From: Sinomonas sp. R1AF57
GTDB lineage: Bacteria; Actinomycetota; Actinomycetes; Actinomycetales; Micrococcaceae
Assembly: GCF_002224485.1 (NCBI RefSeq)
Contig: NZ_CP022463.1
Coordinates: 2,958,205 to 3,022,204, forward strand
Direction: 5' to 3'
Length of the DNA: 64,000 nucleotides
Below are positions 2,735 to 64,000 of this stretch, piece after piece (position 1 is the stretch's first letter; the number at the start of each line of letters is the position of its first letter). The position numbers were made by a program, and so were the translations under genes. The notes under the pieces are model-generated. The model was given only the letters and a program-made list of their open reading frames with translations, made no database searches and was not told where the DNA came from.

Positions 2735-3844
2735 ATGGCGGCGGCAGGCGCAGCGCCCGAGGCACCCCAGCCCGAGGTCGTCTTCGAGCGGCGGGGGCGC
2801 CTCGGCGTCGTCGTCCTCAACCGGCCGCGCGCGGTCAACGCGCTCACGGCGGGCATGGCCGCGGCGATGCTCGACCAGCTCACCGAGTGGGCCGAGGACG
2901 AGGCCGTGGAGACTGTCCTCGTGCGCGGGTCCGGCGGGCGCGGCCTGTGCGCCGGCGGGGACATCGTGGCGATCTACCGCGACATGCTCGACGGCGGCGA
3001 TGCCACCGCGCGCTTCTGGCGCACGGAGTACCGGCTCAACTCCCTCATCAGCCGCTACCCGAAGCCGTACGTGGCGTTCATGGACGGGCTCGTGCTCGGC
3101 GGCGGCGTGGGCATCTCCGCGCACGGCTCGCATCGCGTGGTCACCGAGCGAACGCGCACCGGCATGCCGGAGACCACGATCGGGTTCGTGCCCGATGTCG
3201 GCGGGACCCTTCTGCTCGGGACCGCGCCCGGCGAGGGGGGAACCCACGCGGCCCTGACCGGCGCGCACCTCGAGGGCGCCGACGCGATCCACCTCGGCCT
3301 CGCGGACTTCTTCGTCCCCGCCGACCGTCTGGAGGCCCTCGCCCGGGCGCTCGAGGCCGAGCCGGCGGACGACGCCGTGGCGCGCCTCGCCGTCGTGCCT
3401 CCCCTCTCCGAGCTCGAGGCGGAGCGGGGGTGGATCGACGAGGCGTACGCGTGCGACGACGCCGAGCAGATCGTGCGGCGCCTGCGGGCGTTGGGAGGCC
3501 CTGCTGCCGAAGCCGCCCGCGCGATCGAGGCCAAGTCCCCCACGTCCGTCAAGGCCACGCTCGAGGCGCTGCGCCGGGCGCGTGCCCGCGGGCCCCGCAG
3601 CACGGCCCTTGAGGAGACCCTCGACGAGGAGTACCGGGTCGGGGTGCGCCTGCTGGCCGGCCACGACTTCCGCGAGGGCATCCGCGCCCAGGTCATCGAC
3701 AAGGACCGTGACCCGCACTGGGCGCCCGCCACCCTGCACGAGGTGCGCCCCGAGGCCGTGGAGGCCCTCTTCGCGCCGCTCGGGGAGCACGAGCTGGGGC
3801 TTGCAGACGCCGTCCGTCAGAGTCTGGAGAAGGAGAGGGTATGA
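2735..3844 (+). CDS. 3-hydroxyisobutyryl-CoA hydrolase (enoyl-CoA hydratase family)
   Basis: A 369-residue crotonase-fold protein, longer than a ~260-residue enoyl-CoA hydratase and matching 3-hydroxyisobutyryl-CoA hydrolases. The oxyanion-hole GGDI is at about residues 74-77 and LGGGVGISAHGSHR at 121-134. The catalytic E146 in GMPETTIGFVPDVGG and D154 are conserved as in HIBCH enzymes. It releases 3-hydroxyisobutyrate for the next enzyme in the operon. Its ATG directly follows the mmsA stop codon and its stop overlaps the mmsB start, so the three genes are probably co-translated. Confidence 0.87.
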   Translation: MAAAGAAPEAPQPEVVFERRGRLGVVVLNRPRAVNALTAGMAAAMLDQLTEWAEDEAVETVLVRGSGGRGLCAGGDIVAIYRDMLDGGDATARFWRTEYRLNSLISRYPKPYVAFMDGLVLGGGVGISAHGSHRVVTERTRTGMPETTIGFVPDVGGTLLLGTAPGEGGTHAALTGAHLEGADAIHLGLADFFVPADRLEALARALEAEPADDAVARLAVVPPLSELEAERGWIDEAYACDDAEQIVRRLRALGGPAAEAARAIEAKSPTSVKATLEALRRARARGPRSTALEETLDEEYRVGVRLLAGHDFREGIRAQVIDKDRDPHWAPATLHEVRPEAVEALFAPLGEHELGLADAVRQSLEKERV

Positions 3845-56356: not shown

Positions 56357-57808
56357 CTAGACAGCCACGAGGGAGTGCTGCTCAAATTGTCCAGAACTGA
56401 CCGCCGGAGACTCCTCATTGGCCCGGGCAAAGGCCTCTAAATGAGCCTTCAGCATCCTGCCAACCGCATACGACTGCCAGGGCGAAACCGCGTTTCCAAC
56501 TTGCGTGTACTGCGGGACTTCGACCCGTCGACGGTGTGCACCCGTTGTTTCCTTCCCCATAAACTCGAAGTTGTCAGGAAATCCCTGAAAGCGCGCGAGT
56601 TCACGAACCGTAAAGGTGCGAGATTCGGCGGGATGCACATAGTCGTCGGGCAGCGATACCACTGTGCGCGCAGGCTTTTCAGGGTCAAGCGCTTTCTGGC
56701 TGTGCTTCCGAGTGCCAAGAAGCAACATGAACTGGATGAGCGCAGCCTCGTCATGGATCTTATGTCCAGCGTCGTTGGCATCAGCCTGAAGAACGACCGG
56801 ATACTCCACCTCTGCGAGGAATGGACTTGCGACCTCCACAAAGTCTTCCTGAGTCGCGGCGATACGCGACAACAGGAGCCGGTCTACCCCAGCCCGCTGC
56901 ATCCAGCGATAGAGAGAGAACCGGTTGACGACTCGTTCTCCGTGGCGACGTCGATTCTGGTTGGGGACCTCGCCGCCCGCTGCTCGCCGAACGGCTTCGC
57001 TCAGTCCCCCGAGACGCCTGAGGTACTCCGCGTTCCGGTCTTGTCCCGGGATCAGCCTCCAGTCGCTGAGGTCCGAAATGGCATCGCGAACGGTCCAGAC
57101 CTCATCACGGCGAACTGTTGGCCGCGGCGCGAGAGCGGGACATTCCGTGAGCTCATCCACGAACGACGAGCGCCACACCTCATCAGTGACGCCAATCTGG
57201 AGTTGATCAGCGACATCCCGGCGCAGGGCAATCAGCATAAGCCGGGGACGATGCTGAGGAGCCCCATAGTGCATCGCGTTGACCTGAACGGGCTGGACCG
57301 CGTAACCAGCCGAGCCTTGCTCGGCAAGAGCTGTTCGCAACTGCGAGAACGAAGACTCCTCACCAGGCTCGAAGCTGTTGCCCATACCGACCACGTTCTC
57401 GATCACGACGGCCTTGGGCTCGGTCGCATCAACGAAGTCAAGGTATTCCCACGCAAGACGATTGCGAATATCGGCCTTGTTCCGTCGGCCAGCCATGGAA
57501 AAGCCCTGACATGGCGGCCCACCGACGACCACGTCCAGAGCCGTCGAGCGGAGAGAGGCCATGATCTCGGGGGCGCCAAGCACATCGGCCAGAGGCCGCA
57601 CGATGACCTTGCTCTGCACCTGCTCCGCAAGGCTCGCAGCCACGTAGCGATCCCACTTACGAGGATCAGATGCGTCTCCCACATAGTTGTGGAAGAACGT
57701 CCGAGCAGCCATGTCAGACTTCTCGACCGCGGCGACCAGAGCTCCCCCCGCACGCTCCATCCCCAGCGACAGCCCTCCGCATCCAGAGAACAGGTCAACG
57801 AACTTCAT
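56357..57808 (-). CDS. C5-cytosine DNA methyltransferase
   Basis: A 483-residue DNA-cytosine methylase. Motif I FSGCGGLSLG (7-16), motif IV PPCQGFSMAGRR with nucleophile C100, motif VI ENVVG (137-141), motif VIII QHRPRL, and motif X QVGNAVSP near 448 are all present, so it looks active. It transfers a methyl group from SAM to C5 of cytosine at a site that cannot be read from sequence. It lies 83 bp downstream of the giant nuclease-ATPase gene on the same strand, as the probable self-protecting partner. Codon use is less GC-rich than in the flanking chromosome. Confidence 0.93.
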   Translation of the reverse strand: MKFVDLFSGCGGLSLGMERAGGALVAAVEKSDMAARTFFHNYVGDASDPRKWDRYVAASLAEQVQSKVIVRPLADVLGAPEIMASLRSTALDVVVGGPPCQGFSMAGRRNKADIRNRLAWEYLDFVDATEPKAVVIENVVGMGNSFEPGEESSFSQLRTALAEQGSAGYAVQPVQVNAMHYGAPQHRPRLMLIALRRDVADQLQIGVTDEVWRSSFVDELTECPALAPRPTVRRDEVWTVRDAISDLSDWRLIPGQDRNAEYLRRLGGLSEAVRRAAGGEVPNQNRRRHGERVVNRFSLYRWMQRAGVDRLLLSRIAATQEDFVEVASPFLAEVEYPVVLQADANDAGHKIHDEAALIQFMLLLGTRKHSQKALDPEKPARTVVSLPDDYVHPAESRTFTVRELARFQGFPDNFEFMGKETTGAHRRRVEVPQYTQVGNAVSPWQSYAVGRMLKAHLEAFARANEESPAVSSGQFEQHSLVAV

Positions 57809-57891
57809 GATTCGAACATATCTACGAACGCCATCTTCTGATTCTCACACCCGAGCCCACCGCATGTCCAGGCGACACGCAACTAGCAAGC

Positions 57892-60800
57892 CTACAGGCG
57901 GTCCAACTCGTAGTATGGCGTGACCCGAACGATCTTCGGCTCCGCGCAGCCGAACGACATGTACAGCACCTCATGCTTGTCGAAGGCGGGGATGCGGTCG
58001 GTGGTCTTGTCACTCACGCCCTTGAGCCCGAGATTTCCTAGCTGCTTCGTCGACACGCTCGGCACCCTGTGGATGACCCACGTCCTAAGGGGCTCTCCGT
58101 AGTTGAGCTTGCCTGTATCGAAATGTGAGAGGTATTGGCTGGACAGCATGACTCCGAAGCCGAATTGGCGCCCCTGCAGCATGAGGTCCATCAGCACCGA
58201 GAAGTTGTAGCGCATGATGTTGACTGCCTCGTCCACAACAAGGAATGACTTCAAGTAACGAAGCTGTGGTCGAGAGCCCTGAAACGGCGGCTTGGTGGAA
58301 CGGATCATGTGGTCGTAGTAAAGGTTTAGAAAGAGTGCCACAATCGCATTCTTTGCGTCTTGGTCCTGCCCCAGCTTGTCCAGCGCAACGACGAGAACAC
58401 GGCCTGTCAGCAATTCCTGGAAACTACGTAGATTCTCTCGATGGTAATCGAAGATCTCCCCGTAGACGAACGTCTCAAGGATGGAGGAAACAGCGTCGGG
58501 CTTTCCCTGCTCTTCGAGATACAGATCGAGGACATCGGAGAGGAGCGGCTCCCTGCCCCCCTGGAAGATGTCCCGGATCACCTTCTTGAGGACACTGGCC
58601 TGAACCGGCCCGATGCCGCTATAGATCTTGGAGAGCGTATCGACGAACGCTCCGGCCTGCTGATGAGGTTTCCTCGAGTATTCGTCCGTCACTGGCATGA
58701 AGACATTGAGAGGCATCCTGTAGGGCCGGAGAACAACTCCACCAACGCGGTCCAGAAACTCCTGATGCTGGAAGTCGCCCTTGTAATCAAAGATCAGCAC
58801 CGACGTCGATTCATCTGGTTGCCGTTCGGCTGCCTGCGAGCGAATCTGACTCAGAAGCGCCTTGACGAACTCGGTCTTGCCTGTGCCGAGGTCGCCGACA
58901 ATGCCGACGTTCATCTGAGTCAGGCCCGTATTGCTCGGCCAGAAATCTACGGCCGCATGTCCAATGGAATCCAGAGCGTGGCCGATATTCACCCTCACAC
59001 CATCCCCGACGATCCCCCCAGCAGATTGGCCCGGCTCCCGCTCTGTCACAGGGGAACCCGTTGCCTGCCCCGTGAGCGCTTCCCCGGGATCCATATTGGC
59101 AGTCAAGTTCTCTCGGTGGTCCTCATCCGACGGATCATCCTGACCCTGCCAAAGAGTCGGCTCGTCGCCGTGGATCGGGCTTTCGGATCGATCGAGAAGG
59201 TCATTCCAGGACTCGATCAGAGCAGACTCAGGGTCTTCGAGGGCAGCAAAGACGGCCCTCGTATCGGCCACCATACCGACGGCCCCAAGTTCGCGACTGC
59301 CCAGCCGTCCGGAATAGTAGCTGCTGGCTCCTGAGCCGTCACCCAGATAGTCGAAGTAGGTCAGGATCGGGCGGCCGGCTCGGACGGCCATCTGGCCTCG
59401 CGCGACCTTGTCCAGCCTGTCAGACAGAGTTGCGGACTGCTCGTCGGCGGCGGGCTTAAGCTTGATTGCCGTTTCTACGAGAGTCGCAAGGGCATTGAAC
59501 CAGAGCGCCCGATCGGCACCGTCTTCGAGGGATCCGGCGGTGTTCTCAATCTCCTTAACAACCTTCAGACTGGATGCGAGTTGCTCGAGCGAATCATCGA
59601 ACGCCGAACTCTCAGCCGATGGCAGCTTGTGGGCGGGGCCCGCGGCGGACTTCAATCCGTAGCTCTTGATCTCCACGGGCGAAATGACGACTTCTTCATC
59701 TCCGAGTTCCAACAACAGCAGGTCTGCACGCCGGTAGTCCTGACCGTGCTCGGCACCGCCTGCCAGAACCCTGAGGAAGTAGTCGGCCGCGTCGACGGGG
59801 ATGACCAGCCTGCTGGCTCCGCGCCCAGGGGCACGGTCGAACAGTTCAAAGGCAAGGTAGAACCCCAAGGCGCCAGCCACGTGGGTGCCTCCGAGCGAAA
59901 GCAATGAAGCCAGTCCGACTCCGCGCCTTCCCAAGGTTCGCTGGACTCGCTCTTTCAGAGAGTTCTTCTGCGCAGGTGAATCACTAATCACCCCGGCAGC
60001 TTTGACCAAAAGATGTTCGAGCTCGTGTCCGAACGCTTCGGGTACGCGAGCGATTGAAATATGCGGGCGCCTCTCTATCAGGGCGGCCCTATCCTTCACT
60101 CGCTCGAAGATCGGTGGACGCCACTCCCAGAGCATCTTCTGCCCGGCACCGAACTGATCCATCATGCCAGCCATGACTGCGGGGGTGATGTGGGTTTCTC
60201 CGAGCACCGTCCAGTCGGCCGACTCATCGGCAAGAAACGCGGAGACCATCCCTGAATGTATCGCTGGCGAACCGCCTTCCAACTGCTTGAGCGCCGCAAC
60301 GAACGGCGTCTCGATTCCGCCGGAAATCGCCGGAAAAGACGGGCTCTCGTACGCGCCGAAGGACTGACCGTGGGCCTCAAATCGCCTGAGGGGAACCTCC
60401 GCCACTGTCCCCTTCGCCAAGCCCTCGACCGAGATCCTTGCGGTGATTCCGGCTCCCTCAAGGAAGCGCAGGTTGCAGGCGATAGGGCGCGACGGGTCAT
60501 GCCGGTACCTTGACCACGTCACAAGCAGTTCTCGATTCTCACGAACCATCCGAGTTACATCATCACGTGGTGGTGCTCCATCTCGTAAGACGGAGTCGTA
60601 AACGCGGATACCACCTTGGAAGGACTCCTTCGCCGACCAGTCCCGCGCCATTCTCAGAACAGCACTGTCAATCTCTGTGATGCGGTTTGCTGGCTCTGAG
60701 GCCGCAAGATCGACCGTCAAAGTCGTCGCATGCGGGTGCATCCTCCTGAAGGATCGCAGCGCGGCATCGACGCTCGCCCCATTCAGCCCTGTCGCCGCAG

Positions 60801-63330
60801 TTCCAGGCGCCATATAGTCGCCGATTCGGGCCGGTGACTTGAGGGCGATGCCCTCGTCTGACCCAGCAGGGACCAGGACGGACCAGCCCAAGAAGATCTG
60901 GTCTTCTCCGGCGTCCGACGGTATGGCGATCATGTGACGGTTCTTCTTCGGACCTGGACCGGTCACCGGGAAGTTCCAGCCCTCGATGGTGCCCAGGAGT
61001 TCTCTGGATCGAGCCGAAGCGTCAAGGACCGACTCGCTGCCAGCGAGCCAGGCCAATCTCACGGGATGCACAGGGCTTAGCAGAACGGCACTACAGTGAT
61101 AGCCCTGCTTAACGTCCCAAACGCTGAGAGAGAACGGATATGCCGCCCAGAACCGCATGGCGTGGTTAGGCAGGGCCGAGGCCGCGCGCACGAGGTCTGC
61201 GTATGCCATCAGGTAATCGTCGAGCCGCGAATCCTGCCACAGTTCCCTAACGGAAGTCCTCGAAGGCCACTCGTACCCCAAACTTGAGGCTCCTGCTTGC
61301 CTGCCGAGTAGTCTGGGCAGTTCCAGCGCTTCGAACGCCTCCCGGAACCGACTGGCCTCCGGACCATTGATGAACGGGTCGTCGAACGTCAGGTTCATCA
61401 GATGAGGCTGTAGAAGCGCCCGAGTTTGATTCGACATCAGGACGGCCCCCGCCCACTGAGGGGTTGCGCCGTCCAGAGAACAACTCAGGTCCGAGGGCAT
61501 TACTACATGGCCCAGCGACTGCAGGAAGTCACGGTCTCCAAGACAAACGGCCTCGGCCAGACGCGCTTCGTATTGTCCGCGGATAGACGATTCAACGTCG
61601 GCGCTCGGGCGCTCAGCGCTGATGGGTTCCTTCAGCGCTGCGGCGATAATCGCCGACTGTTGGCCCTTTCCTGCAGCAACGGGGCGAACACGGAAGGTGT
61701 AGTCACCAGCTGAAAAATCGTTGTCGGCCCCGGCACTGAACTGGGCCGTCCGGACCTCGGACAGGACAGGATGAGCAGGTACGGGGTTGCCATTGAGAGT
61801 GACAGCGGCCTCCGCATCTGCATGCCACAGCAACGCCTGATAGCCATACTCGTTCGGGACGACCTCGACAGTTGGTTCCAGATCCTCTTCCGACGGCTCG
61901 AGAACGGTGGGTCTGCCGAGGGCGCCATCTTTCCGGACGGGAGCGACTATCAGGAGTACCTCCTCCGCAGACAGGAAGTACACCTTGACGCCCGGCTTGC
62001 CAGGAATCCCGCGGGCGAGTACGTGCGATCTGTCCACGTGCAGGACAACCGAAGCAGCACGGAAGGGTGCCGCGTTTCGGCCCGTTCCAGCGGGACGGTG
62101 GAATCGCCCTCGGATTCGCAGCTGGCCGGGCTCTACTGAGATCCCTTCCGTTTCCCATGCCCCGGCGCCCTTGGGAACAACGTCGATGCCGCACAAGTCG
62201 AGCGGCACCACGGTGTCCGCCGGACCAGTCCAGGAAACGAGGATGTCGATTTCCGCCGACGTGGGCCGTCGGCCCACGAGTGGATCCGTCGCCAGCGGAA
62301 CGATGAACGGCGTGGTTAGAGAATCGGGGGTGAGACGGAGGTTCCCCCTCCCGACCAGATCCATGGTCAAGTACGCGTCGGAGGCCGTCCCCGAGGGATC
62401 CACGAAATCGGCAACGCTGATCCGGGACAGGACATCGAGTCGTTCCGGGCTACCTGCGACCCATGCAACGAGCCCTGACTTGGGGTCGCCGGTCTGGAGG
62501 ACAGCCTGGTTATACCCGTCCGCGGTGACCGCGCTGAAGGACGGGTCGTCCGTACGCATGGCGATCTGGGCCAACGACTGCTTGAGCGAGTCTTCGTCCG
62601 CCCAATACTCATGGAAGGCATCCGCGACTTCGCGAACAACACTCGGCGCGCTCTTCGTCACGGTCGCGGGCCGAGGGAGGCCGAAGGACGCAAAGCACCA
62701 CCTCTCCATGAACTCTGAAAATCCTAGCTCGGAACCTTCGCTCACCTGTGTTTTGAAAACTTCGGCCAAATTCCGCAGCGCCGATTCCACATGACGGAAC
62801 CACCGCACATTCCAGCTGCCGACGCCTTGCTGATCTGCCACGTGGAGCACCCGCAACATCCCCAGACACCGCTCAAGAACTTCGATCGCATCATTGTCCG
62901 GCTTTGTATCCAGGCCAGCTTGAGCGCCGAGGCGTTCAAGGAGGATCCGCGCGACCTCGCGCAAGCCCAATCGGTCGTTAGCGGCGTCAGGGTAGCTCGG
63001 GCCCGCTACCTCAGTGAACGTCTGAAGGAAGGATGCCAGATCCGGCTGCCGCCCGTACACCACGGCGAGGCGATCTCCTTGGCGATAGCGCACCGACTCT
63101 TTGGCCGACACGACCACGACTTCACTGCCGGCAGACTGCTGGCTCGCAGCTGCATTGATGAGGATCGCAAAGGGGCTAGGGGCGGTGGGGCGCGCAATGT
63201 TGGCAGCCCGGACGATATCCACAGCACTGGCAAAGTCAATACCATCGGGAAGATGGAAGAAGCTCAGCCCGTCAATACCTGCAAGTGCCTGCCCCAGGGC
63301 TCCAGCGAGGCTCGCCGTCCTGTCGGTCAC
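57892..63330 (-). CDS. Giant PD-(D/E)XK nuclease-like plus HerA/FtsK-type ATPase protein
   Basis: A ~1812-residue protein. C-terminal ATPase about 1460-1812: Walker A GIVGDLGTGKTEFVKAL with K1485, Walker B SFLVVDEAVNIM with D1700/E1701, ending in TKQLGNLGLKGVSDKTTDR, as in HerA/FtsK DNA motors. A PD-(D/E)XK-like set lies at about 1160-1225: D1203 (YRRADLLLLEL) and E1220-I-K1222 (PVEIKSYG). The first ~1100 residues are unrecognised. DptH of phosphorothioation-dependent restriction is the nearest layout I recall. I start at GTG 63330, one base after the upstream stop; TTG 63351 is an alternative. Confidence 0.8.
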   Translation of the reverse strand: MTDRTASLAGALGQALAGIDGLSFFHLPDGIDFASAVDIVRAANIARPTAPSPFAILINAAASQQSAGSEVVVVSAKESVRYRQGDRLAVVYGRQPDLASFLQTFTEVAGPSYPDAANDRLGLREVARILLERLGAQAGLDTKPDNDAIEVLERCLGMLRVLHVADQQGVGSWNVRWFRHVESALRNLAEVFKTQVSEGSELGFSEFMERWCFASFGLPRPATVTKSAPSVVREVADAFHEYWADEDSLKQSLAQIAMRTDDPSFSAVTADGYNQAVLQTGDPKSGLVAWVAGSPERLDVLSRISVADFVDPSGTASDAYLTMDLVGRGNLRLTPDSLTTPFIVPLATDPLVGRRPTSAEIDILVSWTGPADTVVPLDLCGIDVVPKGAGAWETEGISVEPGQLRIRGRFHRPAGTGRNAAPFRAASVVLHVDRSHVLARGIPGKPGVKVYFLSAEEVLLIVAPVRKDGALGRPTVLEPSEEDLEPTVEVVPNEYGYQALLWHADAEAAVTLNGNPVPAHPVLSEVRTAQFSAGADNDFSAGDYTFRVRPVAAGKGQQSAIIAAALKEPISAERPSADVESSIRGQYEARLAEAVCLGDRDFLQSLGHVVMPSDLSCSLDGATPQWAGAVLMSNQTRALLQPHLMNLTFDDPFINGPEASRFREAFEALELPRLLGRQAGASSLGYEWPSRTSVRELWQDSRLDDYLMAYADLVRAASALPNHAMRFWAAYPFSLSVWDVKQGYHCSAVLLSPVHPVRLAWLAGSESVLDASARSRELLGTIEGWNFPVTGPGPKKNRHMIAIPSDAGEDQIFLGWSVLVPAGSDEGIALKSPARIGDYMAPGTAATGLNGASVDAALRSFRRMHPHATTLTVDLAASEPANRITEIDSAVLRMARDWSAKESFQGGIRVYDSVLRDGAPPRDDVTRMVRENRELLVTWSRYRHDPSRPIACNLRFLEGAGITARISVEGLAKGTVAEVPLRRFEAHGQSFGAYESPSFPAISGGIETPFVAALKQLEGGSPAIHSGMVSAFLADESADWTVLGETHITPAVMAGMMDQFGAGQKMLWEWRPPIFERVKDRAALIERRPHISIARVPEAFGHELEHLLVKAAGVISDSPAQKNSLKERVQRTLGRRGVGLASLLSLGGTHVAGALGFYLAFELFDRAPGRGASRLVIPVDAADYFLRVLAGGAEHGQDYRRADLLLLELGDEEVVISPVEIKSYGLKSAAGPAHKLPSAESSAFDDSLEQLASSLKVVKEIENTAGSLEDGADRALWFNALATLVETAIKLKPAADEQSATLSDRLDKVARGQMAVRAGRPILTYFDYLGDGSGASSYYSGRLGSRELGAVGMVADTRAVFAALEDPESALIESWNDLLDRSESPIHGDEPTLWQGQDDPSDEDHRENLTANMDPGEALTGQATGSPVTEREPGQSAGGIVGDGVRVNIGHALDSIGHAAVDFWPSNTGLTQMNVGIVGDLGTGKTEFVKALLSQIRSQAAERQPDESTSVLIFDYKGDFQHQEFLDRVGGVVLRPYRMPLNVFMPVTDEYSRKPHQQAGAFVDTLSKIYSGIGPVQASVLKKVIRDIFQGGREPLLSDVLDLYLEEQGKPDAVSSILETFVYGEIFDYHRENLRSFQELLTGRVLVVALDKLGQDQDAKNAIVALFLNLYYDHMIRSTKPPFQGSRPQLRYLKSFLVVDEAVNIMRYNFSVLMDLMLQGRQFGFGVMLSSQYLSHFDTGKLNYGEPLRTWVIHRVPSVSTKQLGNLGLKGVSDKTTDRIPAFDKHEVLYMSFGCAEPKIVRVTPYYELDRL

Positions 63331-63331
63331 G

Positions 63332-64000
63332 TCAGAATGCCCTTTCCACAATCACCGCATTGTCTGCATCAGCGCTTCCACGCGCCATGCCCGCCCGCTC
63401 AAGGAGAGACACTAGGTCCCCCAGTTCTGGGCGCATGCCCAAACGACCCAAATCGGCCAAGACATCGCCGACCGTGCACTGACGCGATGGACCGTCGCAA
63501 GCAAGGCTCGCGACGACCGTCACCCATTCGGTGCCCGGGTCGACGAGAACAAACCGCCGACCATGTGACTTCAGTATCCCGTAATAGTCGGTATATGGAC
63601 CGCTCGCCTCACGGACCTGCAAGCCATACTTAACTGTTTCGTGAACAGTCTTGCTCCTGTCCGTACTGTCGGCCAACGATTTCACGAGACGTTCGACATG
63701 CCCTTTTTCGCTGGCCAGTTCCCTCAGGAATTCCGTCGCAGGGATCTCGCTGAGCGACCGCTTCTGGGAATGCTCCTTCATCCGATCGAGCAAATACGTG
63801 CGTACTTTTTCACCACGCCGGAGTCGATGTTTTATAAGGGATGCAACATCCCGTGTCGTCACCGTGGCGCGGCTCGACTGCCATGGCAGAGGCGGACTGA
63901 CGGTGGCCACCAGCTCAGCGAACGTGGGCGGAACGGAAGTGTCGATGATGGCAGTTGCGAGACGTTCGTACCACGCTGCCTCCCACAGGAATCCGAGCCC
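63332..64000 (-). CDS. Unknown protein of the nuclease-ATPase operon, C-terminal part (runs off window)
   Basis: At least 222 residues are visible, open to the window edge. The readable part includes FLWEAAWYERLATAIIDTSV, a basic helical region (LIKHRLRRGEKVRTYLLDRM), and GILKSHGRRFVLVDPGTEWV followed by a winged-helix-like end (VGDVLADLGRLGMRPELGDLVSLLERAGMA in parts). I do not recognise the family. It stops one base before the giant gene's start, so the two are surely co-transcribed. It may be a DNA-recognition or regulatory subunit; that is a guess from context. Confidence 0.7.
   Translation of the reverse strand, partial: GLGFLWEAAWYERLATAIIDTSVPPTFAELVATVSPPLPWQSSRATVTTRDVASLIKHRLRRGEKVRTYLLDRMKEHSQKRSLSEIPATEFLRELASEKGHVERLVKSLADSTDRSKTVHETVKYGLQVREASGPYTDYYGILKSHGRRFVLVDPGTEWVTVVASLACDGPSRQCTVGDVLADLGRLGMRPELGDLVSLLERAGMARGSADADNAVIVERAF

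Follow-up and report, generated by a model that had tools for sequence, protein, structure and literature searches.

DndFGH (DptFGH) is described as a phosphorothioate-sensing machine. Its proteins are reported to assemble as a DndF:G:H complex of 2:2:1 that binds, translocates and nicks DNA (PMC10470545). SspFGH acts on DNA without its partner's mark (PMC8092258), and both machines damage DNA that does not carry that mark (PMC10470545, PMC8092258). Unpaired SspFGH is toxic (PMC8092258), as is unpaired DptFGH (review PMC12707154). Adenine methylation does not block DndFGH, which is held to sense phosphorothioate only (PMC10470545). According to PMC10853773, DndFGH without all Dnd modification genes is common, and the machine is argued to be standalone and possibly to sense modified nucleotides. 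The same paper reports cytosine methylases with CxC-DndE systems and not with DndFGH, and its available text mentions neither Vsr nor Dcm. Other HerA-based systems have been described (PMC12839542), and the available text of PMC5608340 holds nothing on a pairing of FGH with a C5 methylase. No published FGH module with a C5 methylase (with or without Vsr) was recognised in our literature search, which left out supplements, preprints and most subscription papers.

The locus considered here lies at the right edge of a window of 64,000 nucleotides, positions 2958205-3022204 of a 3.94-Mb single-contig genome. An earlier note had placed three minus-strand ORFs here, a C5-cytosine methylase, a giant ORF and an ORF entering the window at position 64000, and all three are where it put them. 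It also took them for one operon that included an unknown protein. ORF calls across the window and the flank read beyond its edge agree on a single minus-strand operon, but one of four genes, F, G, H and M, because the gene cut by the window edge is preceded by an 801-aa gene; the unknown protein is that cut gene, a 491-aa DndG-like protein. F (genome 3023012-3025417, equivalent to L002:11013-13418) encodes 801 aa and lies wholly outside the window. G occupies 63332..64000 and continues to genome position 3023011, with the C-terminal 222 of its 491 aa in the window. H (57892..63351) is a DndH-like giant protein of 1819 aa when read from a TTG; an alternative GTG start at codon 8 (position 63330) gives 1812 aa, the length and residue numbering first reported for it. 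M (56357..57808) is a C5-cytosine DNA methylase of 483 aa. F and G abut. The distance between G and H depends on the start of H: from the TTG the two genes share 20 nt, from the GTG they are 1 nt apart. The gap between H and M is 83 nt and contains promoter-like hexamers on the minus strand (57841..57870), a weak match (9/12; one found where 0.4 are expected) that would allow M to be expressed separately.

The island is less GC-rich than its flanks (0.56-0.64 against 0.66-0.72), as first noticed. A terminator thought to mark its start did not hold up, since terminator-like matches near the left end are close to chance (three found, 1.7 expected, sd 1.4). A phage origin was considered and set aside; blastn, within its sensitivity, matched none of 50,697 phage records to the DNA from M to H (56357-63351). 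From the ORF listing, the reading frames beyond F look like ordinary chromosomal genes. The right-flank DNA is present in 15 of 18 relatives searched, part of these matches being weak. One same-genus genome (G1122) has the same four genes at the same site, with amino-acid identities of 65% for F, 76% for G, 69% for H and 73% for M. Three other relatives (sister species) have the same right flank adjoined by different restriction-type genes: in L117, which matches stretches of both flanks, an HNH protein; in L115 an NsnA/PD-T4-2-like protein; and in L118 a protein with a match to a type IV enzyme model. With such varied restriction-type genes beside the right flank, the insertion site looks like a defence hotspot.

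H ends in a HerA/FtsK-type ATPase (residues ~1440-1819; 57895..59034, minus strand) with Walker A GDLGTGKT and Walker B VVDEA. Residues 1448-1799 match PADLOC DndH (1.4e-57) and H matches the C-terminal domain of DptH (PDB 7es4, 4.8e-42). The HMM check suggested for the giant protein thus bore out a HerA/DndH C-terminus but left the DptH equivalog TIGR03237 (first 1256 residues) unmatched, for which a control scored 1387 bits. Outside the HerA domain the profile match between H and DptH is weak (best 37%). Ahead of the ATPase are a putative PD-(D/E)XK-like nuclease core (residues ~1145-1260; 59572..59919, minus strand) and, before that, a methyltransferase-like (Rossmann) fold (residues ~833-1105; 60037..60852, minus strand; Z up to 11.7 against SAM methyltransferases). 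This is the domain order given for DndH (PMC10853773). The motif residues singled out at the outset as D1203/E1220/K1222, K1485 and D1700/E1701 are D1210/E1227/K1229, Walker A K1492 and Walker B D1707/E1708 from the TTG start; together with D1187 they are invariant in 77/77 aligned homologues, far beyond chance.

In the AF2 model of H residues 640-1440 (mean pLDDT 82.5), the methyltransferase-type fold is followed by a helix-strand pattern bearing D1187, D1210, E1227 and K1229. Foldseek gave no match with E below 0.001 for this model; the best structural rows are methyltransferases and no nuclease is listed, which proves nothing either way. H of a rhizobial relative (L007) aligns to DndH profiles from residue 1189/1210 onward, so the nuclease region is covered. 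The invariant residues, a succession of strands and helices in the model that fits a nuclease, and the alignment of the relative to DndH profiles indicate that H is probably a nuclease. Its methyltransferase-like fold is probably inactive, as described for DndH. A motif scan of that region found no NPPY-type motif, and the sole FxGxG-like match in H (LEGAG, residue 964) is not conserved in the alignment with relatives L005 and L006.

G is predicted to have the DndG fold. The AF2 model of the G homologue of L017 (mean pLDDT 91.6) matches DndG 7exx with a Foldseek E of 3.1e-4, no other entry of the PDB set reaching an E below 0.001, and superposes on it with Z 15.1 over 354 aligned residues (rmsd 5.4), the next row being SspB with Z 4.6. 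The relation of G to DptG is visible by fold only; it was not detected by sequence profile, and the DptG equivalog TIGR03236 is not matched by G (control 311 bits). A search for DptG in 274 genomes of one class, run without a positive control, found nothing.

F is a remote homologue of DptF. HHalign against seven DptF proteins gave 91.7% (E 7.8e-7) for the clade of this F and 92.1% for all F proteins, and every cross-family control stayed below 1%; taken by itself, the F clade of proteobacteria matched weakly (21.5% and 3.9%). F and DptF are in register at Walker A, at the acidic motif of strand 2, at the Walker B region with its Asn and at a conserved block farther along. F has the features of a P-loop kinase with an acidic residue after strand 2 and an asparagine in the Walker B region, and K204 and D244 are invariant in 74/74. 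The DptF equivalog TIGR03238 is matched neither by F (E<=10) nor by F of L007 (E<=1), a control DptF scoring 525 bits. Against SspF, HHalign gave 94.8% for the whole F set and 2.0% for the clade of this F alone; the SspF model PDLC02793 matches 5/24 F proteins (best 1.4e-6) and this F has no SspF match. Residues 7-120 of F match the PADLOC candidate PDC-S36 (4.6e-30), as do 8/24 F proteins scanned, and have no Pfam family match. That this N-terminal domain reads DNA or its modification is a guess.

The remote DptF homologue past the window edge and the DndG fold of the cut gene place the nuclease half of the locus in the DndFGH superfamily. The system had been put forward as undescribed. For the machine this no longer stands, as genes of dptF/dptG type, named in advance as counter-evidence, lie across and just past the window edge; its pairing with a C5 methylase still appears to be undescribed.

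Phosphorothioation genes were sought by several routes. By blastp there are no dndB/C/D/E genes in the 20-kb stretch around the operon (L002) and, with one reference set, none in 87 non-control loci. A DndC profile exceeded its cut-off in 0/50 and 1/20 host genomes (1 of 70), and found both dnd positive controls; sub-threshold matches comprised one of 130 bits in one more host genome and two weak ones near 20 bits. Pairing with DndABCDE phosphorothioation was thus not found in the loci and host genomes searched. M is present in 0 of 4 tabulated canonical dnd/dpt loci, three more being beyond the reach of the H model and not tabulated. Since the NCBIfam models of DptF, DptG and DptH are unmatched and Dnd modification genes were not found, the genes are not filed as DndFGH; F, G and H are a separate branch of a DndFGH-type machine, remote relatives of DndFGH/DptFGH.

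In a tree of HerA domains, the 74 rows of the present branch fall on one side of one fork (100/99 support; 200/200 bootstrap trees), the outgroup being small (5 DptH and 3 plasmid HerA rows) and several long branches being flagged. The DptH rows are themselves not one group. Three of the 74 (L042, L088 and L095) have no detected M. Proteins of ~960-1000 aa with a terminal DndH-like HerA domain are encoded on Vibrio plasmids (L014, L101 and L099), in L014 and L101 after mobI in conjugation regions; these are a possible source of captured HerA domains.

The methylase is intact, as had been proposed. M matches Pfam PF00145 (2.4e-48), exceeds the cut-off of TIGR00675 (dcm) and has FSGCGG, GGPPCQ, ENV, QHRPR and GNAV, the main C5-methylase motifs I, IV, VI, VIII and X; PPCQ is invariant in 77/77 aligned homologues. 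An intact-motif C5 methylase within the operon is the feature of C5-methylase restriction-modification as a functional class. No Vsr gene lies beside the operon in the source genome. One is found elsewhere in that genome (G000:C1:450494-450829), above the family cut-off and unlinked to the operon.

We kept the best 80 of the 234 relatives of H that a scan of species genomes gave. H occurs in 2 genomes of a draw from the phylum and 3 of a draw from the order, each of 396 genomes with the source genome included, the draws overlapping. We surveyed 86 loci, of which 64 have full context (an ORF for H longer than 4.5 kb, with over 5.5 kb preceding it and 1.8 kb following); the remaining 22/86 were omitted from this count for short contigs, broken ORFs or too little flank. 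The same gene order had been proposed as something to look for elsewhere, and F, G and M occur together with H in 64/64 full-context loci, with Vsr in 46/64. M is on the same strand as H in 54 of the 64 and on the opposite strand in 10. Similarity to H was the basis for choosing the loci, and some are near-duplicates (L052 and L054, for example), so the 64 are not 64 independent cases. The arrangement recurs in actinobacterial and in alpha-, beta- and gammaproteobacterial records. Across the whole survey a methylase is present in 77/86 loci, and every one of the 73 loci scored with F and G has one.

The nine loci without a methylase are L010, L039, L041, L042, L061, L084, L088, L095 and L096. 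F was detected in none of them and G in L095 only; L010 (a truncated H beside IS genes) and L042 retain some upstream context. L088:3-7456, from a Bryobacterales MAG, encodes a diverged F-like ORF (weak SspF-model match), a 446-aa ORF without a match and a 1562-aa H; its 12.9-kb contig has no methylase, and a gene upstream of F would fall off the contig. The H-type protein at L042:3669-9107 (Akkermansiaceae MAG contig DGXY01000100.1) matches Cas10 over its first ~326 residues and from there on matches H proteins of the present branch at 38-48%, with cas1, cas2 and a repeat array just upstream of its gene. This Cas10-H protein is either a real fusion or an assembly chimera. On a Pseudoalteromonas plasmid (L008:9788-10282), H is split into ORFs of 164 and 1623 aa, both of which match the H profile.

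The methylase has been exchanged within the branch. Methylases in 43 loci of the L007-like group are of seven types, and on the HerA tree L060 (sister L070), L043 (sister L056), L083 and L078 carry a C5 methylase unlike that of their neighbours. Because L043 and L083 have the same type of methylase, the minimum number of exchanges is three. Before F, at the methylase site of relatives, L060 and L083 have no methylase match, and their methylase sits after H. In L043 a second, separate methylase piece of 51 residues (2967-3119, between the new methylase and F) matches relatives' methylases at 46-55%; it could be the remnant of an earlier methylase and is too conserved to tell its type. A fourth exchange was considered at L058, where the methylase differs from that of its sister L079. 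It was not counted because the contig has only 443 bp upstream of F, and the ancestral methylase could lie off it.

The methylase of L060 is ~33% identical to that of L070, and sliding-window identity detects no diverged segment in F, G or H after this exchange. A region of FGH that tracks M was sought by sliding-window identity, partial Mantel and label tests, and the results were rejected as proof of a specificity region. Identity dips at F 121-180 and H 1081-1140 (L007 numbering) in 3/4 testable loci (L078, L083 and L043); L060 has no dip and a fifth pair (L008) has no comparison group. Partial Mantel tests gave a diffuse picture. A naive permutation that ignores phylogeny was passed by the label test, whose top windows differ (H 751-780, F 661-690 and F 121-150).

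We propose that the locus most probably encodes a restriction system that relies on methylation and has a DndFGH-type machine at its core, in which M marks self and FGH translocates along and cuts unmarked DNA. This agrees with the restriction-type reading offered at the outset, there being a modifying enzyme and a DNA-translocating, probably nuclease-bearing protein. From its motifs, M would add 5-methylcytosine at a defined sequence in host DNA. By homology, F (P-loop), G (DndG fold) and H (HerA translocase and PD-(D/E)XK-like nuclease) would form one complex, which would bind DNA, pump it by means of HerA, and cut or nick DNA without the mark. In many relatives Vsr would repair the T:G mismatches that arise from deamination of 5-methylcytosine, limiting mutation at methylated sites, and its presence suggests that the genome is methylated permanently. 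Without M, FGH should damage the DNA of its own cell. This would explain why M is replaced by another C5 methylase while no locus with both F and G was found to lack one; such replacement without observed loss is as expected of a methylase that is an obligate protective partner. The analogy with DndFGH is strengthened by the toxicity of unpaired SspFGH and DptFGH and weakened by the inability of adenine methylation to block DndFGH. The unchanged FGH of L060 would be odd if FGH reads the same sequence as M.

That last point bears on a bolder and rather doubtful proposal, that FGH is a general machine with an exchangeable self-mark, phosphorothioate in Dnd and Ssp and 5-methylcytosine here, which checks for the presence of the mark as it translocates and is blind to the sequence that the methylase recognises. 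Different methylase types would then be interchangeable with FGH unchanged, as in L060. If true, such reading of an exchangeable mark would be unlike sequence-matched restriction-modification.

In an improbable alternative, FGH alone senses infection (nucleotides or invader proteins, via F), and the methylase has no part in this or shields no more than a subset of sites. The proposal that DndFGH is standalone and may sense modified nucleotides (PMC10853773), the invariance of the nucleotide-binding residues checked in F (74/74) and the want of an FGH segment that tracks M convincingly are in its favour, whereas M stands beside FGH in all full-context loci, is exchanged and not lost, and is often joined by Vsr (46/64). 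We think it very unlikely that FGH follows a type IV logic, attacking methylated DNA with M as a tightly controlled trigger that marks invaders. The PDC-S36 match of F, if it is a reader, and the type IV enzyme model matched at the same site in a sister species would suit such a role, but the constant presence of M, its motifs intact, and the frequency of Vsr imply that the host is methylated permanently, and both characterised FGH relatives act on unmarked DNA (PMC10470545, PMC8092258). That M is an ordinary orphan C5 methylase next to an unrelated Dnd remnant is scarcely credible and already disfavoured: DndFGH without all Dnd modification genes may be common (PMC10853773), but here F, G and H abut or overlap, the catalytic residues are invariant, the HerA domains sit on one side of a branch and the arrangement recurs from actinobacterial to proteobacterial records.

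With M as the protective partner of FGH, the present genes would be a further branch of the DndFGH machine linked to base methylation, and would demonstrate that one mark can stand in for another. They would also provide a simple system in which to test how FGH discriminates marked from unmarked DNA, with one methylase gene in place of four or five sulfur genes. Some orphan-looking methylases, such as the Pseudomonas aeruginosa PA7 one that adjoins F, G and H (L066), may be explained as protective partners of giant nucleases.

Other systems share part of this plan. DISARM class 2, Druantia and LlaJI-type multi-subunit 5mC restriction-modification join a C5 methylase to a multi-protein restriction module driven by ATP or GTP. 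The DrmMII and DruM models match the methylase only, and the core proteins beyond it, which we take to be DrmA/B/C and DruE, have no counterpart here, as DISARM, Druantia and BREX core models do not match F, G or H. The genes of DISARM, BREX and Dnd (dndA-E) had been called absent from the visible part; this is supported for the DISARM and BREX cores by the model searches with F, G and H and for dndB/C/D/E by blastp, and a remote DptF homologue lies past the edge. MADS, which presumably uses base methylation and has, we assume, eight genes in its full set, shares with the present system a DndG-like protein (the mad7 model matches DptG) and a HerA ATPase (the mad8 model matches H, 1.1e-15). It differs in that there are four genes here and G has no mad7 match (E<=10). 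A MADS discovery paper was not among our literature matches.

SspFGH of the Vibrio anguillarum type has the same three-gene plan, and its F is related when all F proteins are used. Its partner is SspBCD phosphorothioation, and G and H have no detected profile relation to SspG and SspH, for which one or two Ssp sequences were used. With DndFGH (DptFGH) the likeness extends to three genes in the same order, an F that has Walker A, the acidic motif and the Walker B-region asparagine, a DndG-fold G, and an H with a methyltransferase-like fold, nuclease-like motif and HerA domain. The present system differs from it in having a C5 methylase (often with Vsr) and no DndABCDE found, in leaving the curated DptF/G/H models unmatched, and in a HerA domain set apart from the 5 DptH rows tested. 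The machine itself is known; what appears to be new is its combination with a C5 methylase, often accompanied by Vsr, in place of the phosphorothioate genes.
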